From Hydractinia symbiolongicarpus (taxonomy: Eukaryota; Cnidaria; Hydrozoa; Anthoathecata; Hydractiniidae): a stretch of DNA of 64,000 nt. Every line of letters begins with the position of its first letter. Within the stretch, counting starts at the first letter, position 1. The notes beneath the pieces are model-generated. The model ran no database searches. It saw only the letters and a list, made by a program, of their open reading frames with translations, and was not told where the DNA came from. The position numbers and the translations under genes are program-made. Positions 15,775 through 64,000 of this stretch are shown here, one piece after another. The stretch lies in NCBI RefSeq assembly GCF_029227915.1, contig NC_079885.1, forward strand, positions 22,631,001-22,695,000. Reading direction: 5' to 3'.

Positions 15775-15838
15775 CTTGAGACTCTTCGATTGACTTTTGT
15801 TTCTCTCACGACACGATCTTTGACACTTTCGAGTGTGG

Positions 15839-15846
15839 TTTATATA
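15839..15846 (-). promoter_or_regulatory. TATA box of the coiled-coil gene
   Basis: On the minus strand TATATAAA lies 65 nt upstream of the Met codon at 15774, which would place the transcription start about 30-40 nt upstream of that codon. This is the main reason for preferring that start. Confidence 0.45.
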
Positions 15847-16391
15847 AATAAAACCAAGTTTGTACCCAGTACTGATGATATCCTCAGCAAAGTTATGTAA
15901 TAGATTCTTGAGGAGAAAGTTGTTTTGACAAAAGATAAGCATTAAAAAGTAATTTAAGTGAAAACTTAAAATGGTTTTTTTTGTTATTTGATTGTTTTGA
16001 AAATTTAAAAAATATTTTAAAAAACACCCGGTGAAGTTAAAATAAACACTTCCCCTTTTCTCGTTTGAAATTCAACTGAGTTTTTCCGCTGTTCCCTGCA
16101 GTGGTCAAACATTAAAAAATATAATTTCATTTAAACGTTTAAACTCATTTTTTTAAAAAAATTATTCCCTCATCACAGTTATTTTAAAAAGACATTTGAC
16201 AAAACCCAGTCATCAAGACTCACTTTACTTCAATTCTTTACTTCTTTCTACAAGGCGTAGTCGTAACACGGTTACTTAGGAAAAGTATTTAGCTACAGAC
16301 TTTTCAGCTTTTAGGACCAATTCTACTTCAATATCCCTTACCTTTTGTACAGAGCGTAGTCGCAACACGGTCACGGTTGTGAAAGTAAAAG

Positions 16392-29900: not shown

Positions 29901-30041
29901 TTAATGCGAAAAGAGGCTGTTCCTAAGTCACACCCTGTTCGACGCTACAAACATATCGAGCTCCAGAAAAGCGATAAACCGCTGACTACGCCACAGACGC
30001 CTAACTTCGAATGCCAGAAGCGAGCTTTAACCAGGTTATAA
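20952..30041 (+). CDS. TPX2: TPX2, spindle assembly factor and Aurora A activator
   Basis: TPX2 nucleates microtubules around chromatin under Ran-GTP control and activates Aurora A. Exons: 20952-21048, 24768-25395, 25635-25757, 26805-27099, 27383-27513, 27999-28181, 28422-28593, 28681-28842, 29033-29173, 29640-30041; all GT..AG, phases consistent, 777 residues (human about 747). The N-terminus SKYEFNAPKFIDF..DADKWF matches the Aurora A-binding region. Exon 2 is acidic, then basic. Later exons carry the F-x-F/F-H-F motifs of the family (ITKPKEFQF, KPKPFHFVLP, VKPFHFELDSR, VKPFSFESRD, EFHARPLPSF, EPQPFHISVG). The C-terminus has the TPX2 helix (RAKERAKFEEWKSEQ..) and ends HPVRRYKHIEL..KPLTTPQTPNF, as in vertebrate TPX2. 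The first intron is 3.7 kb. Start chosen as the first ATG in frame with the Aurora motif. Confidence 0.95.
22193..22240 (+). repeat. tRNA-like 5' half (A box only), probable SINE relic
   Basis: AGCGTAATAGCTCAGTTGGC is a good match to the start and D-arm of a tRNA with a perfect A box (TAGCTCAGTTGG). No anticodon arm or B box follows, so it is not a functional tRNA gene. It lies in TPX2 intron 1. Confidence 0.35.
22768..22813. repeat. Perfect 21-bp inverted repeat with 4-nt loop
   Basis: Arms 22768-22788 and 22793-22813 are exact reverse complements (core GATAAGGGTAAACAC) around TCAG. In an AT-rich intron this is a striking exact palindrome. It lies in TPX2 intron 1 and would form a hairpin in the pre-mRNA. 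Confidence 0.9.
23208..23260. repeat. ACTAGTCG-headed repeat, second copy
   Basis: ACTAGTCGATAAGGCCTGTC starts here, following TATATAT. The head matches the repeat at 18373. The downstream part (AAATCCACTTACAGG) forms a weak dyad with CCTGT. Limits are uncertain. Confidence 0.35.
26147..26193. repeat. 20-bp inverted repeat with 7-nt loop
   Basis: Arms 26147-26166 and 26174-26193 are inverted copies with a single mismatch (TTTAGTTACCCCCAACATTA against TTTAGTTACGCCCAACATTA). It lies in TPX2 intron 3. Confidence 0.85.
28218..28376. repeat. Possible MITE with internal hairpin in a TPX2 intron
   Basis: The ends are CTTTTAACCC (about 28221) and its inverse GGGTTAAAAG (about 28374). Near the middle, 28309-28343 is a 17-bp inverted repeat with one mismatch and almost no loop (TGAGTTAGGGTTAATAA and its inverse). 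Size about 160 bp, no coding. Confidence 0.45.
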
Positions 30042-42200: not shown

Positions 42201-45200
42201 CATCCCTCACCATGTAGAAATCAATCAAACCTCGTTCTTGTCTGAGATTGCTGCCATGCTGAATTTTGATCACTTTGAAGGGGATAAGATCTTAGATTCA
42301 TCCGGCCATGGAAATGATGGTTTAATGTCAGGTGCTGCCACATTAATGCATGCCAATTACTCATGCGGTATGGCATGCTGGCTTAGCGGCGGTGTCATCA
42401 CATTTGATGGAAGCCGTTTTAATCCTAAACCAAGCACAGCGATATCAATTGCAACCTGGATGAAATTAGGCTCAACTTCTGGAATACAGTCGGTATTTTC
42501 AACAGTTGGATTTTCTCATAATGATGGACAATTTCTGTTAGAGGTCAATGATGGCAAACTTATTTGGAAACACACTAATGAGCAGCAGTATGTCGTGTTT
42601 GATTGTGAAACCTCAGACGTTGTTATACAACCAGACCAATGGGTGCATGTAACAGCAACATACGATTCCGCAGAACGTAAGTAGGAATACATTCATCTGT
42701 TGGTATCAACTATAGTTGATGTAAATGTATAAGTTGTTTAAAGGTTACTACCACCATTTTCTTGGTACTGAACCATTTGTGTACAATATAAACAAGGCTT
42801 ACCCGTTGTCGAATTAGCAGATTTATTTACTTCTTTCATCCTTAGGTAAGGCTAAACTTTATATCAATGCTGAACTCATGAAAGAAATTAATGGTACCGG
42901 ATTGCTGTCTCAAGATTGGGGCCAAGAAGCTGTAATTGGAAGTAAAAACGAAGGCAATGAATTTAAGGGATGGTTTGACGAATTCGTTATTGCCACTAAA
43001 GCGCTTTCAAAATCAGAAATCAGCGATTTGGTTAAAGCTTGTGCATATGGTATGTCATCTCTCATAATACACTTTTCACTGGATCATCTTTTATATGTCA
43101 CGTGTTCTTCTTGCTGAATTATTGTACAATATATATATCAACAAGATGACAACCTTCTCTTTAGGAATTCCATCGCCACATTTTGGTCTGGACTTCCCCT
43201 GTAAAGAATGCAATATTTCCACAACCGCATCTCCAAGCACGACAGTTAGCACTACCCAAGGAAGTAGCTCGTCCACTGGTCCGACAGTAAGCACTACTCA
43301 GGGCAGCAGTACATCTACTGGACCCACTGTCAGTACTACTCAAGGCAGCAGTACATCTACAGGCCCAACAGTTAGCACTACACAAGGAAGTAGCACCTCT
43401 ACTGGTCCAACAGTAAGCACTACTCAAGGTAGCAGTACATCTACTGGTCCTACAGTAAGCACTACTCCTGGTAATAGTACTTCTACTGATCCAACAGTTA
43501 GCACTACCCAAGGAAGCAGCTCATCCACTGGTCCAACAGTTAGCACTACTCCAGGTAGTAGTACTTCTACTGGTCCAACAGTTAGCACTACCCAAGGAAG
43601 CAGCTCATCCACTGGTCCAACAGTTAGCACTACTCCAGGTAGTAGTACTTCTACTGGTCCAACAGTTAGCACTACCCAAGGAAGCAGCTTATCCACTGGT
43701 CCAACAGTTAGCACTACTTCAGCTAGTAGCACCTCTACTGGTCCAACAGCAAGCACCACTCCAAGCAGTAGTACATCTACAGGCCCAACAGTAAGCACTA
43801 CTCAAGGCAGTAGCTCATCTACTGGACCAACAGTGAGCACTACTACAAGTAGTGGCACTTCTACTGGTCCGACAGTAAGTACTACTCAAGGTAGTAGTAC
43901 GTCTACAGTTAGCACAACAGCTAGTGTTAGCACGACAAAAGCAATTAGCAATGAAACCACACTCGGAACTACTCCGACAGGTAATTTCCATATACCAGAA
44001 ATTATTTTTTAATATATGATATTCTTGTATTAAACTAATTGCATCTAATTATTATTATTATTTTGTTAAACAGGTGTGACCACTCCAACAACGCCTTCAC
44101 CAACAGTCCCACCTATTCGATCATGTCGGGAATATTATGATCGTTGTCACAGAAGACGTGATGGCACGTATCGTTTGACATCAGTATCTGAAGAAGAATC
44201 TGCAGAATCATTTTATACATATTGCGACATGACACGTGACCTAGGAGGCTGGACCTTACTTGTTACCAGTAAAAATTCCGGAGACTGGACTGAGGAAAAT
44301 TTGATCAATCATGGTGGAGATAATCCTTCACTTCAATCAGACTTCTCAATTTTATCACGTGCAGACGACATTACTTCGATAGTTGATGAAGGCTTTGAAT
44401 ACCGACTGGAGGCCGGCGAACCAGGACAGTTTGGTGGAATTTGGAAAGCACCATCTAACTATAAGTAAGTGTAGTTATTACAGTAAATTATAGACAGAGA
44501 AAAAAAGAACACATGTTCTAAGGAGTTTTATTTTGAACATCATTTACAACTTCAGAAATTTTGAAAAAAGTAGTACAATATGTATTTTGCTTTGGTTAAT
44601 TTCATTTTATGGCAAAACAAAAGTTAAACTTAGCTTAACATCATGTACTTCTCTTGCTGATTAAAAAAATACATTTTTCAACTTTGTTTGTCTGTATAGG
44701 ATTATTTCAAATTACAACAATCAAACTGACGTAACACTTGAAAAAAAATTTAGTCAATGGGACTTTATTGGATCTAGTATCAGATACAGAATGCCATATA
44801 TACCTATGGGTAGCAGTAAAGCCTTGTTTACGACTGCTGAAAACCCTGATAGTGATGACTTTGGTACGATCATCTCAAAAGAAAGAAAATATACGCCAGC
44901 ACCATGGATTAAAGGAGTTGCCGAAAACCCATTGAATATATGGTACTGGTTGAAAGAAGCTAAAGGTCAGTATGTACTGCAGTTGGTGATTTAACTGATA
45001 TACACAAAGTTAATAAGTTGCAAAAAAGAACATTGTGTTGCTATTTTTGACTCTATCTCCTAAAACTCTTAGCAAGCCATCGTAAAATTCCAATCCTTAT
45101 CTACCATAGGTACCTTCACTCACATGAACAACAATGTGCAAACAAATAGCCCAATTAACATATTTTACTACAATGTTGAAGTTGTCAATAACGAAACAAA

Positions 45201-48200
45201 AATTATCCTGGAATGGACTCTTGGTAGTGAACGCAAGTCACAAATACTTGAAATTCATAGTGTAACAAGGATGGTGAACGAATTGAGAACAACTGTTCCT
45301 CAGCCACCTGGTGTCACATTCAAAGTTTTAAGACATGCTGACCGATCACCATTATATATTGATGGCCAAGAGGAAATGGAAGTATTGCCATCGACTTCTC
45401 GAGAGGAGTTTTCTCTTTTGCCTATTTCTTCAGTAAAAGGTTAGTTTCATTTTCAAGACAGGTTATAAACCTAATTTTGAGATTTTTTTGTTTCTCGTTG
45501 ATCAATTATTTTTAATATTTTTTTCGTTTTCTACAGAAGATAACAAAGCTGAAGAGATGAACGTCTATTACTTTAACTACCAGTTTGTCAATTACGCTGG
45601 TGGCCAAGTTGATATTTCATTTGAAGAATTTGGACGTCCAGAGACTGTACGCTTAGATGCTGATGATGTGTTAAACTGGCTACGCGTATTTAGATCAAAA
45701 GAGGATCCGTTTTTTGTTTTAAAAGCCACTAACAAATCAAATGGTGTTCCCTTAAAAATCAATGGCGAAGATGAATACCATATGATATCGCATGACAATA
45801 GACTTGACGTCTTTGTTGTTGACATATCTGCAACTGGTGTGTTTTTTAAGCTGAATTTTTTTTTTTTTTGATTAAGCTAAATTAACTGAGCGAACACTTC
45901 AGGTGGATTTTAGTGAGCATTTGACCTTTTTACGAATCGTTAAAGACAGTTTTTGGTAGACACGGTTTGTGTTACTGCAGTCCATACTTGCATGTCCAGA
46001 TGTTATTTCCTTTTCTTAAAAGCCATGAAAACATTGTATCATGAAGGGAATATGTCTAGGAATAACATCTCAAGGTGTTGCAATGACATCAGCTTATAAA
46101 ACTAATTTAATATTTTTATATTTTGCAACTCATTAATTTTTTAGGAGAAAATATAGCAACTGCACCAACCACCTACTTCTTAAATATGAATGTTCAAAAC
46201 AATGCTGGAACAAGAATAACTATCACCTGGCGAGATGGCATTAAAGAAACGGACATTGACGAAGGAGCCAAAGGAGAATTCACTTACAACATTACATCTT
46301 ATGTCAAGAATCTACCACAGTACAACTTCATGATGGTTAGATACGGTACTAACATATCCGAGCTGGTAAATATGGAGTCAGTGATCATGGTTCATCCCAC
46401 AACTGAAGTGAATGCCCAGATAGCTACCTATACTGTTACATCGTCAGGTATAAAGAAAACTCGTAAATAATACTGTAAAGTAGCTAATAAAACACCAATA
46501 CGTTCGATTCTTGTAATCTTATATGCTGCATAATTGTCTACTAAATTAACTTCTAATCACACTTGCCTAACTTATTAGGTACTAGCACATCTACGGTTGA
46601 CAATTTAAGAGAAGATCCTGTTTGTCCTCCTGCAAGTAAGTGGCATAATCATTACATTACTGTGGAAATTGTGTGCAAGACCATTACAGTCGATAGTTTA
46701 TTAAAACAATAACTCATACCTTAAATTTACTATACCTTTCTTATTTTTCAGTTGATGGAGACTACTCAGAATGGACAACTTGGACAACTTGTAGTGTAAC
46801 ATGTGGAAATGGGTATAAAGCAAGGACAAGACAGTGTAATAGTCCTCCTCCAGAAAATGGTGGTAGATCATGCATTGATCAGGGCTTGGGAGAACCTACC
46901 CAAACGGCCATTTGTTATATGGAAGCTTGCAACAGTACGTTGTGTTGTAGCTTTGAAATATTTTGTGTTTATGAAGTTCCATTACATAGCCAATCATTTT
47001 ATTTTTAGGGCCAACTGGAATGATCACATATCGCCTGTACTCCATTATTGTCAATAAATTAGATTCTGCTGCGCGTGTAACTGCAACGCAGTCTGGACGA
47101 ATAGTGTACGATAAAACCATACACACTGGCCGACGATTTGAAGAAAGTCTCACAACAGAGACTTCTAATGGCACTGTGCCTGATCCATATATCTTCTCTG
47201 CCACAGACATTGATGGTGTGGTGACTTATTATGTAAACAATGGAGAAACCTATAATGTACCTTGGAATGAAAACGTCATTTATTATGTTATGTACATTGC
47301 TAAACATCCAGGACGTAAGTTGCTAAATGAGACTGAGTTTTTAAGTATTGAATGAGACTTTTTCCTAAATTATTGAAGATTGAATAAGACGACTTACTTA
47401 TGCCATATTTTCTATTCTTTGTAGCCGTTGGTGAATCCAAATTGTACTACATTAATATTGATTTCAATAATCTTGCAAGTGGTAATGCTTCCGTTCAATA
47501 TAAAGAATTTGAGTATGATAGAGAAAGAATTGTGTTATACAGTGCCATGTATTCTATTGAAATCGCTGCTATGCTGACAGAACGCCCTATGTTTACCATG
47601 ATTGCCAGAAATGAAGCCAATGGAAATCCATTTTTCTTGAATGGACAAACTGAGTGGAAAGTTAGTGGTTCTGAGTTCAAGGGCGAACGTAACTTAATCG
47701 ATATTACAGACCAAGGTCAGTTTGTTCTTTGAGCAACATTTCCTGTAGATTATAAACTAACAACAATCTAATAATACCATTAAGTAATATACAAAACAAT
47801 AGGGCATGCGTAGTTTTTTTTAAAAAAACTCTTACTTATATTTTTATTACTTAACCTTTTATATCTATTGTAGGATCCAGCACCACTGGCAATGCTCAAC
47901 GATACTTCCTTAACTTGGAGATTATCAATAACGCTAACACAGGTGTGGCCGTCCAGCTTGAAGGTAACTCAGCACCAATTAAAATACCAATGCGAGGTGT
48001 TGTGAAAATCAAGGAAACCATTATTGCTGTCAACAAGCCTGTTGGAAACGTTTATCGTGTGTTTGAAGACAGTGCATCACAAACAGTGCTGTATTTGAAT
48101 GGTAAAGAAGAACTAAATATTGCTCCATCTGTTAAAGATGAAGTGTACAGAATATTTATTACTGGAAAGGGTAAGAGTTTGTTATTAAATTTTCTAATGC

Positions 48201-51200
48201 TGCTGTGACATATCCATGATTTACTAGAAAGAATTATTTAATGGATTCATGTGTAGACTTTTCTTACAATTTTGTACACAGAAGATTGTACACTGTAATA
48301 TTGCGCACTGATATGATATAAAAAAGAAGTACATATTAGTCTGCGAGGAATTCTAATTAAGAAAATATATTTTTTTATTACGGAACTTTAAAATTTGGCT
48401 TTAAAAGCAAATAAACAACAGCAGAAAATGACTTCAATTGCATTTCTATTTTTTCTAGATAAGACAACGCCCCTTCAAGTGTACTACTTGAATCTACAAT
48501 TCATCAACATGTATGGACAAAACACAGTCACTGTATCTTGGGCTGACAACCACACAATGGTCTCACAAGACATACCAGGACTTGGAGAAGCATTTAAAGA
48601 ATCAACCGTCGCTCTGTCCTCTCCTCCCCAACCTATTTACATACAAGGCAAAATCAAAGGAACAAATCAGTCAGTAATGTTGAATGGTCAGGCAATGTAT
48701 CCAGCCATAGCAACTGAGACACAAAAGACTATACAAATTACCCTTGGGGAAGGTAAGTGAGAAATAAGATGATTTAAGTTTTTACTGGAACGCTTGAATA
48801 TTTATATTTGTATAAGACTCCACAATCTGTTTTTTAACCAGTTCCAAGGCGCACTGTCGTTTTCTCTATCCTTAATTTCATGGCTTTTTCATTTATTTTT
48901 CATTTTTTTTATCCTTAGATGGAAATGTCCCTGTTCCTGGACCAGTCAAGGTGTACTACATACGTCTTGAGGTTTCAAACTACCGAAGTGATGATGTTAC
49001 TCTAAAATGGTTATCTGACAACATTCCTCGACAGCAAATAAGCCAGAGCAGTTCAAAAATGATCGTTAATCAAATTCAAGTAGCATCCACTCAACCTGCT
49101 GATGTAAACTTCACTGCTGTAGATTCAAATGGTGTAGCTTTGTATCTGAACAATATGGAAGTTTTAACTGTAACTCCAACCATTGTAGAAGAAACAGTTA
49201 CAGTCATCTTAGGTAATATTTATAAATGATGATTAACAGTGTATGATTACCAGTGCTGCTGCAATCCTATCCATATACTACATGTTACCATAACCGTAGC
49301 TACCATATAGAATTGTCTATAACAAGAGTCTGTGATTCCAATTATTGTACTATTTCAAGTTCTTCTTTATGTCGAATGTTTAGCTGTAGAGTTTTCACCA
49401 TAACTTCCGATTTTTTTACCTATAGGTCAAGTTATCAAACCAGGAGTGACTACAACAATGACACCAACTGTATCAACCACATCTGGCACAACATCTGCAA
49501 CTACAACGGTCTCTCCGAGACCTGGCGAAATGAAAAACTATTATGTCAGAATCGAAATTAACAACTATGGAAATAAAGACATCAATATCAAGTATACCGA
49601 AAATTGGGAAGATCGTGAAACTGCTGTTCAGAAAAGATCGTCTGTTACAATCAATATGATCATACCATCTGTTATACCTCCAGAAGCGATTGTCTTCCGT
49701 GCGTTTGAAGCAGGCACTACTAATGTTGTATTGATGAATGAAGAAGAATCTATTGAAGTGTTACCAGATTTGCAGGACCGTAAAACGATTGCGAATATTG
49801 GTATGTTAAATAAAATACAATATTTATTTGAATGTCAATAAGAAATTCATGTAATGCGTTGCAAAACAACTCAAAATGGCGGTGCTTGATTAAGTATGAC
49901 CATAGATGTGATGTTTAAACGCTTGATTGCTGCAAATTTTTATTTTTAATGTGGAAAGGCAAATGACAAACATAATTTGTGATCTTGATGTATTTGCAAC
50001 TCCCTGTTGTTTGTTACTCTTTGTTTCTATTATTTTTTGTTAACTTTACTTATAAGTGTCATTTCTTGCTATCAATGACATTAACATTTCCACTAATCTA
50101 GGTTCTCCAACAACTACATGGCATTATGTATTAATTTTGAGTAATCAAAGAACACAGCCTGTGACTGTTCGTTATGTAAAGCATAACGAAAATATTGTAA
50201 AAGAATTAGGTCCATACTCACAGTTTATTGATCCATGGCAAGTCATACAACCGACAAGACCTGAACCTTTGCAAATCACTGCTTCTGATAGTGTGACAAA
50301 TAATCCAGTTTTGGTTAATGGTGTGACGTCTTACAGCGTTGAAGCGACAGCTACTACTGTCCCAATGAATATAATTATTGGTATGTGTACTTCACTCGAG
50401 GGTTTTAATCATTTTTTTGAGCATAACGTAACCCTTAGAATGCGAACCTTATTTGAAATGAACTTTTTAGGCACAAAAATACTTCTTGACTTGCCGGTTT
50501 TGATTGGACCCAATGGTAGCCCAATTTATCCTTTTTTAAAACATTGGGAGCTTTTAAACCAAGTCCTTAACTGTGGGGTGTTTTTGCCCGATTTTCGACT
50601 GTCTGCGTGTTTCGCACTTTAAGCGGTAATTTATTATAGGTAGGAGTCTTTTTCTATATAAACACGTGTGTTTGTTTACGTTTAGGAGGTGGTAATGGTG
50701 ACAATAGTAATAATGGCACCACAGGCGCAACCTCTAAAACGTACTATGTCAGTGTTCAAATAACCAACAACCATAACACTGGGATTGATATAAGATACCA
50801 GGAAGATTTACAGGAAGTTACGCGTAAGGTTGAGAAAGGTGGTGTTCAACTCATTGATTTTGTTATAAACACAGCCATGGTACCGCGTGACGTTTCATTT
50901 TACGCAGTTGAAAGCAATACTTTCAATGTTGTTTATTTGAACGATCGAGCTAGCTTTGAAGTAAGACCAAGTGAAGTCAGAAACACCATAACGCTTACGG
51001 CAGGTGGAGACTCAATAGGTAAGTGATTTTTGCAATCATGTTCGTATTAGGTATACGAACTCCTTACACCTAACACGAAGGGATATTTTGTACAAATTAA
51101 AACAATGAAAATAACAATTGCGGTCAATGTTCTTTTCGAAAACAGACTTCGTTTTATGTTAGTCAGTAATTCACAGAAATTTTCAATGATCGGAAATGAG

Positions 51201-54200: not shown

Positions 54201-57200
54201 GGCAACGGGACTGGAAGTACAGTTACTGGTGGAACAATTACACAAGGTGGTGAGTCCACCATTCAAGGTGGTAGTATGGGCGGAAGCACAACAACATCTG
54301 GAGGAAGTATGACACAAGGTGGCAATGGGACTGGAAGCACAGTTACTGGTGGAACAATAACACAAGGTGGTTCATCTACGATGCAAGGTGGTAGCATAGA
54401 TGGAACCACAACATCATCTGGAGGAGGTATGACGCAAGATGGAAGCACAGTTACTGGTGCAGTTACAACACAACCTGACGCATCCAGCAGTGGAGCTAAT
54501 ACACAAAATAAAACTTCTACATCAGGTGGTAGCACTGGTGGAACCACTGTAATACCGGGTGGAACTTCAACACAAAGTGGAATGTCTATTACGCAAAGTG
54601 GTAACATAGGTGGTATCACAACAATAACTAACGGTACTACGATGCAGGGAGGTGCTGCTACTGCACAAGGTGGAACAATGACGAGTAGTGGCAATAGCGT
54701 GACTCGTCCAGGTAAATACTTTACTTAGAAATGAATTTTAGACAGGAATGTATGAAATTAAAAGGCCTACCATTACACTACTTCATGTCCTTTCTTTCTT
54801 TGTTAGCTCTGGCAAAAGCATATAATATGCGATTGACTTTCACCAATTACGGTAAGCCACAGTCGGTACTCATTACTATCAAACAAAAAGATAAACCTGA
54901 TGAAACATTTGAAGTACCCAGCAATGGGTTAATGGATAGAGTTATTCAAGAAATATCTACCTCGCTGCCAAGTCCATTAGCAATAACAGCCGTTGAAAAA
55001 GGAACCAACAAAGTTGTAAACATTAAAGGCGAGGCAGAGCATAATGAGGAATTTCAGGAACCCATGCCAAGTGGTGAAATGAAAGGTGTTTCATTTACCC
55101 TCGGATCAGGTAAAACAATGTTTTTATTTTTTTAATTTTTATATTAACTACAACTAAAAGGTTACTCTGACTCTCCTTAATTCAGCACATTACCAGCATG
55201 TCGAGCCATTCAGCACCTTGATTCAGTGCCTTTAGAAATGCCTCAATATATGATTGATACCGTGCTTTCTATCTTACTATGTAATGTCAGAAGATGTACC
55301 CTAAACGGTTGTATTACATATACGTTATGTTCTATTTAGCCTCAAGATTCGACTTTTACAATGCTCTATTTGATTAAGTCTTCGAAAATAAATAAGATCA
55401 ATGGAGAGTCAAATGTGTTTAATGAAAGTCTAGGCAGGATTATATATTGCTGAATTAGATAATCGCATTAATATTTAATGTTTAAGTTCGCCTGTACGCA
55501 AATGTTTTTAGAAACACTGGGTACTGATATTCCAAGTACTGGGGTATATCACAACAACCTGATGGCTTCCAATGTTGAACCTCAGAATATATATTATGTG
55601 AGCATTCAAGTTGATAACGAAAAATCTAACGAAACTGTTATATTACGCTGGATTCTACCAGAAGCAATCAGCGATGAAAAACCTATCCCAGCTCATTCAG
55701 TTGTGGCTCATGAATTTCAAATTGGAGCTGTTGATGTTCCATCGCCAATCGAGTTCCAAGCTCATGTGAAGCGGACAGGAAATGTTGTTATGCTGAATGG
55801 TAACGAGAAATTGTATGTTAAACCAACCATGAATAAAAAAACCATGTTTATAAATTTGGAAAGCGAACCAGCTACAGGTAAAAGCAAATAATGTTAGGGA
55901 TTTATGTGGTGTATCTATATTGCTTATAACTTTTTTTCATGCTTGATGTTGTTATTTTAGCCACGTGTCCTCGGGATTACAACAATATTTTGCAATTTTT
56001 ATAATTATTTACTCTTAAATACCTAGATTCAGCTGCTACGGGAAAACCTGAATCCAAGATATATTACACGAGCGTGCATTTGAACAACAATGAAAACAGA
56101 GATATTTTGGTTAAATGGAAGGAGATTGACGAAGTCAAAAATGGAACTATACCAGCCGGTGGAGCATTAGTTCAAGAATTTGTCATCAAAGCCAATACAG
56201 AACCAGATAAAGTTGTATTCACTGCATATGATCCTAGTAACATGGCAATCGTAAGTATAAACGGAAAACAAGACTTGGTTATTACTCCTTCGATTCAAAA
56301 GAACAGAGTAACAGCAAACATCGGTACTGGAGCAGGTAAACACATTATATATATACTTACCTGTGAGATCAACATCTTATGTGCAATATGATGAAACCTA
56401 ACATTAGATATCACTGCTTTCTAATACACAACCAGTCTTCCCTAAAATTAGATTGGAAGAAAATAATAATTAGATGCTATTTAATTTTAGGCCAAGGAAA
56501 AACGTACTACGTCAACTATAATATTGTCAATCAAATTCCAAATGGTAACGTCACTTTAAGTTGGACAGAAAATGGAGAATCGAAGGAGACATCCTTATCC
56601 GGTTTGGGAACTGCAACCTACCAAAGTCAATTTTTGTCTACCAGTACACCAAACATGATTAACATAGAAGGCAAAGGTGATGCATCCTTGGGGACTATTC
56701 TAATTAATGGAAAGGCTGACTTCGATATGGAGCCAAGAGATACAGCAGAGTTTTTAAATCTGGAAATAACTAGTAGTGCAGGTGCCTCCTCTTTGGCAAG
56801 CTCGACAACATCAACTGTGTCACCAGCATCACAAAGCTCCTCTCAATCAACTGCAGGTTCGAATACTGGAGCAGATAAAACATATTACATTAGCATACGA
56901 GTCGAAAACAAAATCAACAAACCAGTTTGGCTTGTGTTTGCCGAAAATGGTCATCCTGGAGAGCGAGAAATACCAGCAAATTCGGTCCAAACTGCTGAAT
57001 TTATAACAACCTCTGCATCTCCTCCTGAGAAAGACGTTGTCTTCAAAGTGTACTCCTACGACCGTAAGATCCAACACTTAATCAACAATAACCAAGAAGC
57101 TATAATACCTCCGAGCACCGAACGAAAGGAAACTTCCCTTATTATTACTGACTCGCAACAAAAGGTATTATACATCAACTTGCATGTAACAAATAACGCT

Positions 57201-60200
57201 GGTAAGAAGGTTACTTTGGTATGGAGTGAAGATGACAGTCCAAAGACTGAAGATATAGAAAACGAAGCTTCGAGGAATTTAACTAAAATTATCCGCACAT
57301 CAGATGACCGTCTACCAGAATATGAATTTCAAGTACATGAGTTTGGAACCAATAGGAACCTTTTAATTAATGGACAACAGACGTTTACTATCACACCAAG
57401 TGATGATGAAGAAGCAGTAACCTATATCAACATTTCACCATCAAGTGGTAAGTGTATCTGACTGTGAAATGCTTTAATGGCTTGTTCGCTTGTATTTATG
57501 TGTTACAGGACTTTAATTAGTCTGCTGAATGTTTGCTACATGACTGGGGAATTCTCACTTCTGATATATTCTATTTCCTATTTAATAATGATTGACCTCT
57601 TAGATAATGGCAATCATGGACCAGCTTCTGCTAGTGAAGTGACAGAAACCCATCTAGTTGTACTATTCGACAGTCAATTGGATCGCATGATAAAAATCAT
57701 TCCTAGCCGAAGTAGTCGAGGAAAGTATTTTGTAGAACCACGTGGATACCTGCAGGTGAACATTACAATCGACAGTCAAGATCCATTTCAAGAAATAACC
57801 TTCAAAGCTGTTGATCAGGAGAAGCAGATAAAGCTTTTACTGAACAATTCAGAATGGATATCTCTTAAACCAACCACAGATAAAGATTTTGAATACAAAG
57901 TAGTTATCACACCCCAAGGTAAAAGACTTAACCCATTATGCTGCGTCGGTACTCTTTTAAAATCTGTTTAATGAATGCGAATATGACTTTACTTCTTTTT
58001 TCTAGCCTTGAAAGTTATTCCAAGCCATTCGTATGCACTTCTGGAAATAAATGACGACCAGATCTACGGTGATCCTCCGCTCATGGCACATGGTCAAATT
58101 GTTGGCGTAGATGGTGGTGGCTTACTCTTTAATGGTGTAGACACCTGGCTTGACGCCTCCTTTAAATCAAACGATTGTTTGATCAAACCAGGATTATGTT
58201 TGAATGGTTTTACAGTTGCATTAAAAGCTGCGTTTATGACCTCTCCTGATGTTAGGTACATCCTGGACAGTGGCGCACATGGTGGATCTTTTCCTGGTGT
58301 GTCTTTATATATGAAGGGCGACAAATTGCACTACCAACTCACAACGAACGATAGAACATGGACCGTAAGTATCATTCACACCAAACATCTTTATATCCTA
58401 GTTGAAATGACAATTTTAGTATCTTTGTTTAATAACAACCTTTTTTTCTTTCAGGTTGAACACCAACCTGTAGTAGACGGAGAAAAATGGTCCTACCTCA
58501 TCGCAACATGGCATCCAGAAAAGGGTCTCTCTCTGTATGTAAATGCTTTATTAGTTGCCACAGACAATCGAGGAGTGCATATTCAACAGTCGACATCAAA
58601 TGAAATCAATCCAAACTTTAGTATTGGACGCAATATTCGCGGAGAAGCGTTTGCTTCAGTTAAAATAAGTTCGTTCACAACCTTTAACACATATATTGAA
58701 GCTGCAGATGTACCGAATGTTTACATGTTCTTCTGGAGCAGCTGTAAGTAGTTATAGTTTTTGGTAAAATTGTAAGATAGAGACTAGCGTATTGATATTA
58801 CTGTGAGCATGAAATCTAAAGACGCATTTAAGCATGATTTTTTTTTACTTTCAGATGCTGCCCAAGCTTACTACGCCAAACTGCGCATATACAACGAAGT
58901 TGGTCGGGATGTTTCATTGATACCAGATAAAGGGAAAAGCGATGGTTTTCTGATTCAACCAGGAAAACCTATGGAGATTACTTTGATTGATTTGTCCACT
59001 GATGGTAAATCTGTTTCGCCAGTATTTTTCAACGTATCTGACGTGGAAACAGGAATGCCGTTATTGATCAACAACAATGGAAAGCCACACGAAATTTTGC
59101 CCACTGAGAATCAGTCGGAATACATTGACCTGATCATTACTTCACCATGTGAGTTTTTTGTGGGTTTTTTTGGTGCATCCAATGCCTGTAGGATTACCTA
59201 AACTTTCTAAGTAAAAATACTGTTCCCCGGCTCTTATGTCATCTATTTGAAGAAGAAAGATTTTCTAATTTGGCCATTTTACTCTATTTGTTTTTCATAG
59301 CTCCTGGTGCCAACCCTTCCTTTATTTGGTTGACAACTACATTGAAAAATAGTCAAATACCAACAAATCCTCCAATTGTTGTGAATGGCGAAGTGCAGGT
59401 TGTTGATGGTGGTATTTTCATGGATGGTGCCAAGGGATCTCTGACAGTAGGGGAGTTTGATGGTAAGTAAAAGCTAAATACCTGACAGGTTGCATGAATG
59501 ATTATTTCTTTTCAGCATATCTTTGTATTCAAAAAAAGCGCATGATTTTTACAAACCACCAAGCTAGTTTTGGGCGTGTTCAGATGGAATCGGTTTGATA
59601 TAGTCCGAGTTTAAGGAAGGAGCATCTTTAATAACGGTATTTTTATTTTAAAGGAGACTGCTTTGCAAATCCAATGTTATGTGACCAAGGGATGACTGTG
59701 GCTGGTAAAATCATGTTAGATGATAGTATATCAGCGTACAGCACACCAAAATATGTGATTGATTCTGGTGGCCATCGCGGGCAAGGTTTCTCTGTTTATT
59801 TACAAAACGGACAAATGTTTGCTGAAATCTCATACAACAGTAAAATGTGGAGAGTAAGTTGATTTAAACCAATCAATGATATAGATTCGTTAATGTAAAT
59901 TGTTGTAAATAATTTACATTTACGGATTCTCAGTTTTCGTCTTACTCTGTTGCTCTTTTTAAACAGCTATTATACGGTATACTAAAGTGCTTACATTTTG
60001 TAAAAATTTGATATGAATTTCTGGAAGCTGGACGTTCTAGATGCTCTAAGATTGTTGCAGTGTGTATGACAATTAAATTTTACATGCTCCTTTAGACTCG
60101 AAACAATGTACCACGTAACAAATGGTTATTCTTTGTCATCACTTGGGCCAAAGATAAGGGACTGACAATGTACATCAATGGTGAATCTAACTCAAAAACA

Positions 60201-63200
60201 GATGAAATTGAAGTGCAAGAACACGGTGCTGAGAAGGACCCAAAGATCACAATAGGAATTGAAAACACGAATAATGCTGATACAAAAGCAAGCCTGACCA
60301 GTAACATTTTCATATTGTTTGATCAATACGTTACCAAAACAGAAGCATCGAAAATATATGTTTATTACTGGGGACATTGTGAGTTTTTTTCAATGTTTAT
60401 ACATGCGTAAATGATTTAACATGTCCTAAATTATTTCTTATCTCTTACTGTACCTCAATTCTTCAACGTTTAAAATGTTACCTAATGGTTTTGTAACTAT
60501 CCCTTTAGCCACTACAATTTCTACCGATCGTTTCATTAACGTCAACTTCGAAAACAAAGCTGGCGAAGATATCGTCTTATATCCCGATAAAGGCGAACAC
60601 AAAACGAATGGATACTCCATCAAACCTAGAATGATCCTAGAGTTACGTTTAGTAGAACAAGGCACTCAAACTAACTTCCCAGTCACATTCCGAGCTAAAA
60701 GTACTGCCTCTGGAGAGTCATTACCACTAGATGGTGAACAGACATATGTAGCTACTCCTTCGGAGAAATCAACTCAAGTGTTTATTGTGGACATCACAAA
60801 GCCATGTAAGACTTTTTTTTATGAAAAATGCTTTGTTGCGTTGTCTTTTACAGCTTTCGTCCTGCTTTGCTTTGGAAATCTTATTTTAATTGCAGTCTGT
60901 TTCCACTTTATTGAATTATTTAAAGAGTATTTATGAGGGCTTTCTGTGTTGTGATTTATGTTCAATGGCAATGGGTGACACTTTATTGGCTCTACAACGC
61001 GCATGTTAAGAATACTATTAATTCTTATTTATGTTTTCATGACCTCTAATGATACTCTTTTTACATTTTATAGTATCTTGTCCAGAAGAAAATGGGGTTT
61101 TCCCTGACCCAGGAGATCATTACTTTTTTGTGACGTGTAATCAAGGAATAGCACAACGGAAAAAGTGTCCATCAGGAACCATTTATAGCAAAGAGAATAA
61201 AGAATGTATTAAGGAGAAAGATGGTAGGTTTTTTTATCCTGCGATATACTGTGTCAACACATTAAGCAATATATTTCCAATACAATTTTATTCTTTATTC
61301 AGTCAATCTATATTATTTCAATTAAGTAATGTTTTTTGTTTCTACACGACCTAAGTCAAGTTGCCTTGAAATTGTTAAAAATTTGTACTCGTAATGTACA
61401 AACTCATGCAGTTTTATCAGTATATTTTTTCCTGTTAGACGATAAAAAGACAACTGCGAAGATTTCTGCTCAAGTCAAATTCCAAAACTTAGCTGGTAAG
61501 GATGTGACCATCTTAGCTAAACCTGCCATTGAAAGCATTGCCAAAGAAATCGAGTTAAAGCCTGGTTCAAGAGCAACATTGAAGATAGACGAATCATCCA
61601 TGGACGAACCTGTGATATTTTCAGCCAAGTGGACTGGTGAAGAAAATGAACTATGGTTGAATGGTAACAAGACGTTTGAAGTGCAGCCAAGGACGGAAGC
61701 AAATTATACAGTAGAAATCACTGTAACTGATCCAGGTAAGAAGATGGTGATTAGAAAAGTGCTTTAAGGAAATTTGCAGACATTTTCCATATGTGCTATA
61801 GAACTAATCATGCCATTGGCTAATGGATTGTTGCCATTTGCAATAATGACTAGGTTTTTTAAATTTTGCTTTGTTTGTTGTTTTAGAATTCTATTACACT
61901 GCAACAACGTATACAGCTGATGGTGCAAATGCAGGAACTGCTGCGAAGATTTACCTTAAACTTGTTGGCGTGTATGGTCAGACAAATGAAATCCAATTGG
62001 TTGGAAGTGACGATAATGTGTTCAAAGCTGGAGAGTAAGTTTTTTGTCTGTCTGCATGTCGTCTTACAATGCACTTATGTAAAGCATTGAATCTATATGT
62101 TCTGCTTTTGTTTTGTGTTTGAATACAACATGTATAACTATAGATGTATATTTCTATAATTTACCTTACTTGATACTTTAGGACAGACACCTTCAAGATC
62201 AATGCTGGTAATTTGGGAACATTACAACGTATTACCATTCGAAATGATGACAGTAATAAAGATGTTAATTCATCAGACTGGCATTTAGAAAAAGTTATTG
62301 TAAACGATACGTTGGGTAATTCGTTCAAATTCCCGGCAAATGTATGGCTTTCACATGAACCAGGAAAACGATTGGAGATGACCTTTGATTTGAGTAAGTT
62401 TGAGTTAATCAATATTAAGGTTCAGGTTTTGGAAATAAAACGTGTTGCAGGCAGAGATTTATACTTATTTTGGTTTATTTACTTCTTCCTTTGTGCCCAT
62501 CCTTTTGTTGTATAAAGTAACGGATCAAAAAAATTTCGAGTGGAGGCAATTTTGTTTCCTGCGTATGTCTTCTAATTATACAATGTCTATAATTACGCTC
62601 GCTATACCACAGGAAAATCACACACTACGTTTTACTCTATAGACACTGGCGCTGTTGATAGCAGTGGCGCATCCAGCGGTGCTCAACCAGTAAACACAGC
62701 TAAATTGGATGTGGTGAACTCATTATTCCGAAAAGTAAACTTAAAGGTATCAACATTGGAGAAACCATTTGAATTAAAGGAAGAGTATGTTGGCCAACTT
62801 ACCATCACGACACCAAGTAATGCTGACGTAAACATGACTGCAGTTGATGCTGATAGTGGTGTTTCTTATTACATAAATGGCGAACTTGTTTACAAGGTAC
62901 CTGTTAGAACTGCTGGCGTATTAGAGAAGATATATATCGGTGACAGTAAGTTAAATTATTCCTATTAAAAAAGGCCTTGGCACTTCACACTAAAGTTTTT
63001 GTTTGTTTTATTGATCCAATACTTAGGCAGTCTGATTACGTATTGCAAAATACGTCATGTATAGTCACATGTGTTTTAGTAGATCTAGGAAATGCCAGGG
63101 TCGGTATATGCATATATTAGTATAGATTTGTAATATTTTGTAAAGTAATTTACCTATATCCTCTTGGAAGGACTATCCACGAATGCGGTTTGGCAACTCC

Positions 63201-64000
63201 AATATAGCACATGCAGACTCTAGCATTTTCTAGCACACCAACATGAAAAGAGATTCTCCGCATAGGAAGTCAAAATCTTTTCTATTCTTTCTACAGAACG
63301 AAACGTCGCTAAAGAACTTAAGAAATTCCGAAATTACCAAACGCATGTTGGAGTTAAGAAAATGCTAGAGTCCTCAAGAACGGTCTATGAAAAAGCCCAA
63401 CGTCATTCCGCTGTACCTAAAGCAGTAATTATGTTATGGTTGGATAATCATTTGGAGTATGCAGTTGAATTAAAGGAAAAGAAAAACAAGATCAACCCAA
63501 TTATAATCCAAGGCAGGGATTCAACAAAGTTTGGCATATCCCTTTCCTCAACAGGACCGTTTCAGTTCGAGGCCTTTCCTCTTAAAGGAAGTGATCAAAA
63601 AAGCTTATTATTAAATGAGAAACCAGTCTTGGAGATTCCATTGCAAAAGGATATTAACCATTTCGTTCATGTTGTCATCACTGAAAGTGGAGACAATAAA
63701 GCTAGTGGTGGTGGGACAGAACAGACAATACCAAGCGCGCTTTCTGATAACTCGACTAGCAGTAGTAATAGCACTGAAGCATCAAAGCCAGACGAGAAGT
63801 TTCCCACAATGCAAACCAAGATTATATTTAATAATAAAATAAACCATACGGTGAAAATATTCGATATTACTGGCGCATTTAAAGCATTTGATGTTCCTGC
63901 AATGCAACAATATCAACACACTGCATCGATCAAACATGGTTGGCCATTGCAGCTGAAAGCTGACAGTGGCAGCAAAGGAGAAAAAGCGTTGCTGAACGGA
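33269..64000 (+). CDS. Giant modular secreted protein, 3' partial (48 exons seen)
   Basis: One gene model joins 48 exons from the ATG at 33269 to the window edge, 20,943 coding nt and 6,981 residues with no stop; the last exon is still open at 64000. Every junction is GT..AG and every exon length agrees with its phases. Exons 1-2 (33269-33338, 33418-33513) encode a signal peptide (LILTVCLLGFLSSIPI) and a dibasic stretch (EKRKSLHRYKRTMKR). The remaining exons are described module by module below. Order: Thr/Pro-rich region, two thyroglobulin-1, Kunitz, SEA-like, Cys cassette, SEA-like, LamG, mucin repeat, fibrinogen-like, about 30 copies of an unrecognised beta module interspersed with thrombospondin-1, Gly/Ser/Thr/Met repeat, two LamG, chitin-binding and PLAT. 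No membrane segment is seen inside the window. It is likely an extracellular matrix, mucus or cuticle component. I do not recognise a named orthologue. It could be two genes if some linking intron is wrong, but no internal start, stop or polyadenylation site suggests that. Confidence 0.85.
33758..34099. repeat. Large imperfect inverted repeat (MITE-like) in intron 2
   Basis: The outer ends AATACACCTTTACGATA and TATCGTAAAGGTGTATT are inverted copies. Further in, CTCCATCGC pairs with GCGATGGAG and CTTTTATAAGAGTTT with an AAACTCTTATAAAAA block. The whole 342-bp segment is therefore a long imperfect palindrome, typical of a fold-back MITE. Confidence 0.6.
34709..38116 (+). other. Giant gene exon 3: Thr/Pro/Asn-rich, mucin-like N-terminal region
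   Basis: A single 3.4-kb exon encodes about 1,136 low-complexity residues. Near the start a block (ANSGVVATKDGTNKEDSIVQ..KPGQIIKGFAQ) is duplicated 249 nt downstream. Next is an eight-copy 5-residue repeat RPPTT (about 35239-35360). NPYLP occurs four times (near 35835, 36149, 36226 and 36556), each beside acidic or Thr-rich sequence. A Thr-rich segment with many TTT follows (36280-36650), and a polyproline run PPPPAPPPP lies near 37738. Many N-x-T/S sequons and clustered Thr suggest heavy glycosylation. No cysteine-based fold is seen. Confidence 0.85.
38278..38643 (+). other. Giant gene exon 4: thyroglobulin type-1 domain 1 plus Thr-rich tail
   Basis: The Cys pattern of a thyroglobulin type-1 domain is complete: NCQSDRE, PECLPDGSYKPMQC, the hallmark WCWCVDGKGQEVIG, and a final EKC. 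The exon then adds a Thr/Pro tail (TTTTPTPAVIVTTTPIPIIL). Such domains bind or inhibit cysteine proteases in some proteins and are structural in others. The exon is symmetrical, phase 1-1. Confidence 0.92.
39179..39394 (+). other. Giant gene exon 5: thyroglobulin type-1 domain 2
   Basis: A second complete domain on its own phase 1-1 exon: TQCQKERK, PECNEDGTYKSRQC, QCWCVDKHGQEILGTR and a final HPDC. Its exon border matches that of the first domain, as expected after tandem duplication. Confidence 0.93.
39706..40145 (+). other. Giant gene exon 6: Kunitz/BPTI domain and start of SEA-like domain 1
   Basis: The six cysteines have exactly the BPTI spacing (8-15-7-12-3) from LCTYEPKKGKC to ECESKC, with FFYN and VYSGCGGNANNF at conserved positions. 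The P1 site after the second Cys is Ser (CSM), not the Lys or Arg of trypsin inhibitors. After the domain comes a linker and the first strand of a SEA-like domain (SEITIKFGIIESYNDDLK). The exon ends in phase 0, unlike most exons of the gene. Confidence 0.93.
40036..40490 (+). other. SEA-like domain 1 (exons 6-8)
   Basis: Coding parts: end of exon 6 (to 40145), exon 7 (40228-40280) and the start of exon 8 (40375 onward). Order: beta strand EITIKFGIIESYNDDL, helix NARMKFMVNEALRKLFP, then VLSIEPRTIPGNQNDVKYTT and TLTTYF. This follows the SEA pattern of strand, helix, strand, turn, strand. SEA domains sit in heavily glycosylated secreted or membrane proteins. The autocleavage G-S-V-x-V motif is not evident. 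Confidence 0.55.
40375..40697 (+). other. Giant gene exon 8: end of SEA-like domain 1 and Cys-rich cassette
   Basis: After the SEA-like strand the exon encodes CVNSTYGCCADGNSPAEGPS followed by GKGC; with the first residues of exon 9 (EENCPC) this makes a compact cassette. The C-x2-S-x-YGCC-x-DG-x3-A-x-GP-x4-C pattern resembles a small cassette known from papilin-type and other matrix proteins. Phase 2 at its start, phase 1 at its end. Confidence 0.7.
40872..41483 (+). other. Giant gene exons 9-11: SEA-like domain 2
   Basis: Exons 40872-40990, 41113-41174 and 41317-41483. The order is EAEFGIMQPYSVTIGEPSDS, helix HQKLSNKIEKWLKDEVYSNA, NEFSSLEVVSLR, then GSVSLVEAVIKINFGLPL. Dipeptide EF, the STHQKL helix and the GSV strand fit the SEA consensus better than domain 1. 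The introns fall in the helix (phase 0) and after the LEVVSLR strand (phase 2), the same phases and order as in SEA-like domain 1. Confidence 0.65.
41738..43049 (+). other. Giant gene exons 12-13: acidic region and LamG-like domain 1
   Basis: Exons 41738-42676 and 42846-43049. The first 170 residues are charged and not assigned. From about 42243 a concanavalin/LamG-like fold follows: NFDHFEGDKILDSSGHGNDG, GGVITFDGSRF, ISIATWMKLGSTSGIQSVFS, WVHVTATYDS, then (exon 13) KAKLYINAELMKEI and GWFDEFVIATKALSKSEISD. These are the standard steps of a LamG/jellyroll domain: DSSG-x-G-N-DG, W-H-V-T-x-T-YD and FDEF. Confidence 0.85.
43165..43980 (+). other. Giant gene exon 14: mucin-type 14-residue tandem repeat
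   Basis: After a short Cys-containing lead (DFPCKECN), about 16 copies of a 42-nt unit (43248-43919) encode GSSTSTGPTVSTTQ with Q/P and S/T variation. Almost every residue is Ser, Thr, Gly or Pro, so dense O-glycosylation is likely. The reverse strand stays open in two frames through the array; those frames are artefacts of the repeat. Confidence 0.92.
44074..44965 (+). other. Giant gene exons 15-16: short fibrinogen-like domain
   Basis: Exons 44074-44464 and 44700-44965. After a Thr/Pro linker the sequence has SCREYYDRC, GTYRL, FYTYCDMTRDLGGWTLLVTS and NSGDWTEENL, the start of a fibrinogen-related domain (the CDM and GGWT elements are diagnostic). The C-terminal half diverges (IGSSIRYRMPYIP, then APWIKGVAENPLNIWYWLKE) and the calcium and ligand pocket of full FReD domains is not recognisable. 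The internal junction is phase 2; the outer ends are phase 1. Confidence 0.75.
45110..46447 (+). other. Giant gene exons 17-19: beta modules 1-3
   Basis: Exons 45110-45439, 45537-45836 and 46145-46447, each a single phase 1-1 exon encoding one copy of an unrecognised module of about 95 residues. Pattern: (F/Y)YxNxxxVNNxx, x-I-x-x-x-W/F strand, a spacer, F-x-V/A-x-R/x strand, then L-Y/K-I-NG-x-E-x-x-x-V-x-P. Examples: INIFYYNVEVVNNETKI with LYIDGQEEMEVLPS, and NVYYFNYQFVNYAGGQVDIS with PLKINGEDEYHMIS. No cysteines. Confidence 0.85.
46579..46934 (+). other. Giant gene exons 20-21: linker and thrombospondin type-1 domain
   Basis: Exon 20 (46579-46635) is a 57-nt phase 1-1 linker with one Cys. 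Exon 21 (46752-46934) encodes one TSR: DYSEWTTWTTCSVTCGNGYK, then RTRQC, GGRSC and ICYMEAC. The W-x-x-W motif and six cysteines are present. TSR domains are commonly C-mannosylated on those tryptophans and bind glycans or matrix. Confidence 0.93.
47009..51018 (+). other. Giant gene exons 22-29: beta modules 4-11
   Basis: Exons 47009-47314, 47425-47715, 47874-48170, 48459-48752, 48919-49212, 49426-49800, 50102-50380 and 50686-51018, one module each, all phase 1-1. Typical N-terminal strands: KLYYINIDFNNLASGNASV, QRYFLNLEIINNANTGVAV, KVYYIRLEVSNYRSDDVTLK, KTYYVSVQITNNHNTGI. Typical C-terminal ends: LYLNGKEELNIAPS, LYLNNMEVLTVTPT, VYLNDRASFEVRPS. Some carry a Thr-rich or Gly/Asn-rich leader. No cysteines in the fold. 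Confidence 0.85.
51295..54711 (+). other. Giant gene exon 30: six fused beta modules plus low-complexity repeat
   Basis: This 3.4-kb exon (phase 1-1) encodes beta modules 12-17 without introns. Module 12 begins ETYYLNVLITNHGSKTYSF. Modules 13-16 start at 51579, 51867, 52155 and 52443, exactly 288 nt (96 residues) apart and very similar (QMYYANVLLENSGSNT and SPNNQTINVA in each). Module 17 starts near 52740 (KSYHLKVILANAGTSSVAVK). From about 53040 to the end the protein is a Gly/Ser/Thr/Met/Gln-rich repeat (separate entry). Confidence 0.9.
53239..54465 (+). repeat. 120-nt coding tandem repeat (about 10 copies)
   Basis: The 40-residue unit is close to GGTMTQGGASTMQGGSMGGT followed by TMSSGGNMAQGGNGTGSTVT. 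It repeats with an exact 120-nt period. 53761-54000 and 54001-54240 are two near-identical 240-nt units (about four differences), which shows recent duplication of a two-unit block. The first copy has an extra seven-residue insertion. The array is free of cysteine and aromatic residues. Confidence 0.92.
54807..57918 (+). other. Giant gene exons 31-35: beta modules 18-24
   Basis: Exons 54807-55109, 55512-55877, 56027-56335, 56491-57447 and 57604-57918, all phase 1-1. Exon 34 holds three modules in tandem separated by a Ser/Thr linker, so it probably arose by intron loss or internal duplication. Clear examples: QNIYYVSIQVDNEKSNETVI, KTYYVNYNIVNQIPNGNVTL with ILINGKADFDMEP, VLYINLHVTNNAGKKVTLVW with LLINGQQTFTITPS. 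Exon 31 keeps the fold but its first strand is altered (YNMRLTFTNYG). Confidence 0.85.
58006..59148 (+). other. Giant gene exons 36-38: LamG-like domain 2 and beta module 25
   Basis: Exons 58006-58364, 58455-58743 and 58855-59148. LamG-like elements: GGGLLFNGVDTWLDASF, CLNGFTVALKAAF, WSYLIATWHPEKGLSLYVNA and NFSIGRNI. Two cysteines (NDCLIKPGLCL) replace the usual loop. The domain is split by a phase 0 intron after RTWT. Module 25 follows on its own exon (QAYYAKLRIYNEVGRDVSLI with PLLINNNGKPHEILP). Confidence 0.8.
59301..60805 (+). other. Giant gene exons 39-42: LamG-like domain 3 and beta module 26
   Basis: Exons 59301-59462, 59654-59853, 60096-60378 and 60509-60805. LamG features: GGIFMDGAKGSLTVGEFDG, GDCFANPMLCDQGMTVAGKI, KWLFFVITWAKDKGLTMYIN and DPKITIGIEN. 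The phase 0 intron after SKMWR matches the one in LamG-like domain 2, and the following beta module (DRFINVNFENKAGEDIVLYP with DKGEH) is closest to module 25. The LamG-plus-module pair is therefore a duplicated unit; copy 3 has gained one extra phase 1 intron. Confidence 0.8.
61074..61223 (+). other. Giant gene exon 43: chitin-binding type-2 (peritrophin-A like) domain
   Basis: One phase 1-1 exon: CPEENGVFPDPGDHYFFVTC, then NQGIAQRKKCPSGTIYSKEN and KEC. The pattern C-P-x4-G-x-F-P-x-P-x2-Y-x2-C-x2-G-x-A-x4-CP-x-G-x-x-Y-x4-x-C fits CBM14. Four of the usual six cysteines are present; the pair around the middle strand is missing. Chitin binding is known for the family and is plausible for an animal with a chitinous coat; it is not shown here. 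Confidence 0.75.
61439..61735 (+). other. Giant gene exon 44: beta module 27
   Basis: Single phase 1-1 exon. Starts KISAQVKFQNLAGKDVTILA and ends ELWLNGNKTFEVQPRTEANY, so it keeps both ends of the module. Length 297 nt. Confidence 0.82.
61887..62393 (+). other. Giant gene exons 45-46: PLAT/LH2 domain
   Basis: Exons 61887-62034 and 62182-62393, joined in phase 2. The order ATTYTADGANAGTAAKIYLK, NEIQLVGSDDNVFKAGETDT, LGTLQRITIRNDD, DWHLEKVIVND and FKFPANVWL matches the PLAT fold (D-x-x-x-A-G-T-x-A, F-x-x-G-x-x-D-x-F, W-H-L-x-K-V). PLAT domains bind lipids or proteins at membranes or in matrix. Confidence 0.88.
62643..62945 (+). other. Giant gene exon 47: beta module 28
   Basis: Single phase 1-1 exon with a Ser/Gly leader (SSGASSGAQP). 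The second half fits the module well (NADVNMTAVDADSGVSYYIN then GELVYKVP); the first strand is divergent (LDVVNSLFRKVNLKV). Confidence 0.75.
63297..64000 (+). other. Giant gene exon 48 (cut by the window edge): beta modules 29-30
   Basis: After a charged helix (RNVAKELKKFRNYQTHVGVK) the exon encodes a divergent module (KAVIMLWLDNHLEYAVELKE ... SLLLNEKPVLEIPL), a Ser/Asn linker, and the start of another (TKIIFNNKINHTVKIFD ... GEKALLNG). The frame is open at 64000, so exon 48 and the gene continue to the right. Confidence 0.8.

Follow-up and report, generated by a model that had tools for sequence, protein, structure and literature searches.

The window analyzed here, a stretch of 64,000 nucleotides of Hydractinia symbiolongicarpus contig NC_079885.1 (positions 22,631,001 to 22,695,000, forward strand), belongs to a genome of 481 Mb in 76 contigs. 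Its plus strand contains a giant gene in which many copies of a module of ~93 residues are accompanied by two thyroglobulin-1 domains and by Kunitz, LamG-like, fibrinogen-like, TSP1, CBM14 and PLAT domains (Table 1). Quite probably, the product is a very large matrix or mucus protein that is secreted and has as its chief repeat a stand-alone β-sandwich without cysteines, with the fold of the β domain of the von Hippel-Lindau protein, pVHL. The analysis established the repeat family and its arrangement in exons, located the family in a stony coral as well, found nothing matching it in two domain libraries and predicted a VHL-β fold.

Modules were identified with an iterated profile searched against the six-frame translation of the window. 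The search listed 43 matches; 27 of these have an independent E-value (i-E) below 0.01, and all 27 lie on the plus strand between 45157 and 62944. Twenty-four modules are strong (i-E < 1e-9) and four are weak (three with i-E < 0.01, the fourth with 0.012), the weak copies matching only the first 67–68 of the 91 profile positions. Together with two further modules found at the window edge by a wider profile, these make the count of about 30 given in a preliminary description of the sequence a fair one. The wider profile, built from 49 modules including those of the window, was scanned over 93 kb (the window and the next 29 kb) and found 34 copies at i-E < 1e-3, 24 of which end within the window, with no copy on the minus strand or outside 45.0–73.1 kb. 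The array, which had been described as ending at position 64000, continues to about 72.6 kb. A profile of 16 modules from a coral protein (Pocillopora verrucosa, see below) provides a non-circular check, because it was built without window modules: over the same 93 kb it gave 21 plus-strand matches at i-E < 1e-3, of which 17 fall in the window, and here too the minus strand and the sequence outside 45.0–73.1 kb were free of matches. In a leave-one-out test, all 23 modules examined scored 19.5–66.9 bits against profiles of the remaining 22, compared with best scores of 4.5–13.6 bits for shuffled controls (200 per module). The same 23 modules contain no cysteine, and their pairwise identity is 7.5–31.5% with a median of 17% (253 pairs). 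The preliminary description had correctly characterized the module as cysteine-free, about 95 residues long and poorly conserved between copies. Its two sequence signatures, read literally, match none of the listed open reading frames (ORFs) of the window; the tryptophan of the start signature is present in 8 of the 23 window modules and is W, Y or F in 15. A 288-base tandem repeat at 51681–52625 (3.3 copies, 90% match) duplicates whole modules within one exon, and the protein is therefore still changing by duplication.

With all splice sites predicted, an exon model from 44107 to 57918 comprises 20 exons and 3291 codons without a stop. Each of the 18 exons from 45110 to 57918 is a multiple of three in length, has AG/GT borders and is in phase 1-1, and the module exons downstream of the window fit the same phase. 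Such symmetric phase 1-1 exons are the mark of exon-shuffled extracellular modules. Modules mostly occupy one phase-1 exon each; two of the 18 exons hold several. FN3 and Ig modules, too, are commonly encoded on symmetric phase-1 exons in giant matrix proteins, and the array resembles them further in consisting of tandem β-sandwich modules, cysteine-poor in the case of FN3, within a large, probably extracellular protein. The earlier view, in which a β-rich module is repeated in a single giant protein that is probably secreted and also carries matrix domains, is supported.

The family extends beyond Hydractinia. A protein search with the module alignment returned 22 matches, 13 of which are relatives of module 1, the first of the array, at 59–81% identity. 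Since the median identity between modules within the gene is 17%, module 1 is better kept between species than the modules resemble each other. Its PQPPGV stretch is invariant in the 14 rows compared. If any module binds a specific partner, module 1, as the best conserved, is the foremost candidate. A search with the whole spliced protein, restricted to proteins 0.55–1.75 times the query length, gave three matches among 7127 scored candidates. Two, a fish SCO-spondin and a starfish hemicentin, lack the modules and presumably share only TSP1. The third, P. verrucosa LOC131774603 (5081 residues, annotated as 'uncharacterized'), carries 16 modules, each with an i-E of 1.1e-5 or better. The precomputed Pfam list of the coral protein names TSP1, EGF, Kunitz and PLAT, and not VHL; fibrinogen-like, LamG-like and CBM14-like stretches were recognized by eye. 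Towards the C-terminus its domain order is similar (module-LamG-module-CBM14-module-PLAT...Kunitz). It differs from the Hydractinia protein in having about half as many modules, EGF domains, more TSP1 repeats and LamG-like stretches that alternate with modules. These searches offer no basis for calling the module family confined to cnidarians.

No Pfam-A family matched the 24 window modules, 10 further module ORFs or 8 Pocillopora modules, and no NCBIfam family matched the 24 modules. The absence of a named family agrees with the preliminary description, but 'unrecognised' as used there is not supported, since the predicted fold is a known one. One confident structure prediction was obtained, for module 1, and it reproduces the seven-stranded β-sandwich of pVHL residues ~63–154 (PF01847) at ~11–13% sequence identity. 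All 50 rows listed in a fold search with this model are pVHL. FN3 and Ig, the repeats familiar from giant matrix proteins, are not among them, an absence from the listed rows that need not hold beyond these. The predicted strand layout agrees over the whole ~93-residue domain, with matching hydrophobic positions, buried asparagines at the N78 and N131 positions and a weak in-register profile similarity. The other copies are tied to the modelled module by the common profile only, so a fold shared by all of them is confidently modelled for one. The 'new extracellular building block' of the preliminary description is probably a divergent branch and a new use of a known fold, rather than a new fold.

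For the relationship to VHL, module alignments were compared by hhalign with an alignment of 18 VHL sequences, all from vertebrates, using 100 permuted trials per test as controls. The scores were 21.1, 20.05 and 21.1 for 23, 33 and 49 modules, respectively; the best of the permuted trials reached 17.4, 13.9 and 18.0. In three of the four tests, 77–78 columns were aligned in the register that the structure gives. Control profiles of LamG and TSP1 scored at most 17.4, over 17–24 columns. Asn occupies the N78-equivalent column in 48 of the 49 modules and the N131-equivalent one in 43, with Asp there in 4 more; both residues are invariant in 17 of 17 VHL rows. Asn78 is described as a frequent disease site whose change destabilizes the β domain (PMC6464237). 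Taken together, this sequence evidence for homology is suggestive, not decisive, and we consider homology of the module to the VHL β domain likely but unproven.

Several observations weigh against this interpretation. The 16 coral modules alone align with VHL over 32 columns only (19.1 versus 17.4 permuted), the HH probability between modules and the VHL family is 2–15%, and human VHL alone gives a short, out-of-register alignment. In HMMER, the module profile reaches VHL proteins with a best E of 21, and there was no Pfam VHL match at E ≤ 10 among the 24 window modules, 10 ORFs and 8 coral modules, a negative limited by HMMER filters that drop most matches above E ~0.1. By sequence comparison, then, no method reaches significance for the VHL link. 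The fold rests on one well-modelled module, and a first, single-sequence model (predicted local distance difference test score, pLDDT, 70) matched no VHL. None of the nine matches of the module profile to PDB sequences is VHL; the best two are designed Ig-like proteins (E 6.5e-5 and 1.1e-4). Function, secretion and expression are read from the domain company.

The modules could accordingly be generic β-sandwiches of the Ig, FN3 or transthyretin-like kind that reached a VHL-like strand arrangement independently, and would still serve as spacer repeats. The subthreshold VHL similarity by every method and the designed Ig-like proteins among the PDB matches are what such an analogy of fold would give, as are stray below-cut-off Pfam matches of single modules to FN3_IL27B_N (E 0.009), fn3_5 and Kre9_KNH. 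Above the cut-off, no FN3 or Ig family matched the 24 window modules. We regard independent convergence as possible but unlikely.

The modules differ from pVHL, an intracellular ubiquitin-ligase subunit, in being tandem copies in a probably secreted protein and in lacking a Pfam match, the pocket residues and the α domain. We take the hydroxyproline pocket of pVHL to consist of W88, Y98, S111, H115 and W117. The Y98 column is aromatic in none of the 49 modules. In the W88 column, W, Y or F occurs in 15 modules, all of them among the 23 from the window and none among the 10 downstream or the 16 coral ones, and the H115/W117 region, where the column mapping is uncertain, has H in one cell and W in two over the 49 modules. 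Judging from these columns, the pocket is not kept; a small doubt remains because 19 of the 49 modules carry an aromatic residue one column past that of Y98. The place of Y98 in the pVHL pocket is given in two articles (PMC3688787, PMC6464237). Module exons end within ~15 residues of the module core and are followed by the next domain, so there is no elongin-binding α domain (elongin C box); likewise, VHL_C had no Pfam match among the 24 window modules and 10 module ORFs.

These residues also bear on the idea that hydroxylated collagens are ligands of some modules, in the way that hydroxylated HIF is of pVHL, which would make the protein a collagen cross-linker. The predicted pVHL-type fold and the aromatic residues at or near the W88 and Y98 positions fit such a reader, as does the finding that segments equivalent to the pocket strands (PQPPGV) belong to the best conserved ones in the module-1 relatives; pVHL itself is reported to interact with collagen IV (same two articles). 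Against it stand the Y98 and H115/W117 columns and the absence of the W88 aromatic downstream and in the coral, and we find a collagen reader very improbable. Slightly less remote, though still improbable, is the broader proposal that VHL β is one branch of an older superfamily used massively outside the cell, some copies of which bind hydroxyproline-rich partners such as collagens, with the reported collagen IV binding of pVHL as a trace of the common origin.

We hypothesize instead that the module is a distant homolog of VHL β that would have kept the structural asparagines and the core and lost the hydroxyproline pocket, the elongin-binding α domain having been lost or never present. It may have spread by exon shuffling of phase 1-1 exons and by tandem duplication. 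The modules would serve, as FN3 or Ig repeats do, both as a modular rod and for binding; they would set lectin-like and chitin-binding domains, TSP1 and protease inhibitors apart from one another in a layer of extracellular matrix, mucus or cuticle-like material. Most likely, they are an unnamed extracellular module with a structural or adhesive role. The same protein might serve as a glue, as mucus or in stinging capsules rather than in a matrix. The mucin-like and Gly/Thr/Met repeats and the protease-inhibitor and chitin-binding domains agree with such a role. Against it, no Pfam match in the part of the exons scanned was to a minicollagen-type Cys-rich domain; we hold this location to be doubtful, about on a par with convergence of the fold.

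An extracellular VHL domain would have a precedent, since single-domain bacterial proteins with a VHL-β-type domain and no elongin role have been published (e.g., Litorilituus sediminis EMK97_00595), and a table of that report gives the SignalP result 'Signal Peptide' (PMC9002001). The bacterial proteins, likened here by description and not by sequence, have one domain each, recognized by Pfam/InterPro. No report of VHL-like tandem repeats in animal extracellular proteins was found in a literature search that had most subscription papers and all preprints outside its scope. A sea anemone matrisome paper (PMC12549020) is indexed with one mention each of 'VHL' and 'von Hippel-Lindau', but its readable text contains neither. 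The fold is already known, and its tandem use in animal extracellular proteins was not found in the literature searched, with the PMC12549020 mention as a potential exception.

Work on the pVHL β domain has mainly concerned its reading of hydroxyproline in the hypoxia response and its use as a drug handle in targeted degradation; our results suggest that its shape also serves as an extracellular building block. If the modules are a large unannotated extracellular sister family in cnidarians, the 34 modules found here and the 16 of one coral protein would form a natural set of at least 50 diverged sequences from which to tell the VHL residues required by the fold from those required to bind a ligand, and would offer a route to ask about the origin of the VHL domain. 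They would also name the main repeat of a giant matrix protein left 'uncharacterized' by genome annotation.

Table 1 Features of the giant gene in window coordinates; 'VHL-fold' denotes the predicted fold.
Feature	Position	Strand	Evidence
Putative first exon, coding for a candidate signal peptide (MILSEARLILTVCLLGFLSSIPI) and ending in a phase-1 donor	33269..33338	+	hydropathy and good donor
Long exon, low-complexity, Ser/Thr/Pro/Gly-rich, acceptor uncertain	34709..38116	+	ORF; no Pfam domain
Thyroglobulin type-1, two exons	38278..39394	+	PF00086 E 5.8e-13, 3.4e-16
Kunitz domain	39720..39875	+	PF00014 E 9.9e-17, residues 60-111 of ORF 39543-40157
LamG/ConA-like domain, two exons	42430..43049	+	PF13385 E 4e-9, 3e-8
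Mucin-like Ser/Thr coding repeats, 42 bases	43242..43906	+	period 42, 15.8 copies
Fibrinogen-like domain, two exons	44107..44965	+	PF00147 E 2.5e-4; 21.4 vs cut-off 22 bits; splice phases
VHL-fold module 1 (structure model; 59-81% identical to 13 relatives)	45157..45429	+	profile search, protein search, model
VHL-fold module	45560..45829	+	iterated profile
VHL-fold module	46168..46437	+	iterated profile
TSP1 exon, phase 1-1	46752..46934	+	PF00090 E 1.6e-11
VHL-fold module	47023..47304	+	iterated profile
VHL-fold module	47439..47708	+	iterated profile
VHL-fold module	47897..48166	+	iterated profile
VHL-fold module	48476..48751	+	iterated profile
VHL-fold module	48948..49217	+	iterated profile
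VHL-fold module	49533..49805	+	iterated profile
VHL-fold module	50113..50385	+	iterated profile
VHL-fold module	50736..51008	+	iterated profile
VHL-fold module, first of six in exon 51295-54711	51303..51560	+	iterated profile, exon model
Four weak divergent copies in 288-base tandem repeat	51579..52661	+	i-E 0.0013-0.012
VHL-fold module, first two thirds matched only	52737..52925	+	i-E 1.3e-10; 0.027 with wider profile
Gly/Thr/Met-rich 120-base coding repeats, within exon 51295-54711	53227..54425	+	tandem-repeat scan (repeats also placed at 53319-54425)
VHL-fold module	54815..55066	+	iterated profile
VHL-fold module	55586..55864	+	iterated profile
VHL-fold module	56056..56328	+	iterated profile
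VHL-fold module, one of three in exon 56491-57447	56499..56774	+	iterated profile, exon model
VHL-fold module	56877..57152	+	iterated profile
VHL-fold module	57162..57437	+	iterated profile
VHL-fold module	57648..57911	+	iterated profile
LamG/ConA-like domain	58006..58743	+	PF13385 E 8.5e-7
VHL-fold module	58863..59141	+	iterated profile
LamG/ConA-like region, several exons	59301..60300	+	last ORF only: PF13385 E 6.6e-5, 23.5 vs 27.6 bits
VHL-fold module	60532..60798	+	iterated profile
CBM14 chitin-binding exon	61074..61223	+	PF01607 E 1.8e-8
VHL-fold module	61468..61728	+	iterated profile
PLAT domain, second half	62182..62393	+	PF01477 E 1.4e-7
VHL-fold module	62699..62944	+	iterated profile
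Divergent module	63422..63688	+	i-E 5.5e-6 with wider profile not built from it; 0.61 with iterated profile
Divergent module truncated by the window end (full extent to 64069), with nine more up to 72580	63803..64000	+	wider profile

The candidate signal-peptide exon was chosen as the stretch with the best hydropathy among ATG-led stretches in 26.0–35.2 kb. Beyond the window, a further Kunitz exon lies at 73.2 kb, and Gly-Met-Asn-rich repeats at 71475–72167 (window numbering) adjoin a module; the match of these repeats to the Pfam collagen repeat (E 5e-11) probably reflects composition rather than true collagen.

A minus-strand open frame of 491 residues at 14599–16071 has no Pfam match. Upstream of the giant gene lie exons of a V-ATPase AC39/d subunit (1666–7194) and of a TPX2-like gene (27805–30038). 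Its downstream neighbors are an intronless serine carboxypeptidase ORF (L004:79-1416; Peptidase_S10 E 3.2e-94) and a SAM-domain ORF (L004:7237-8676).
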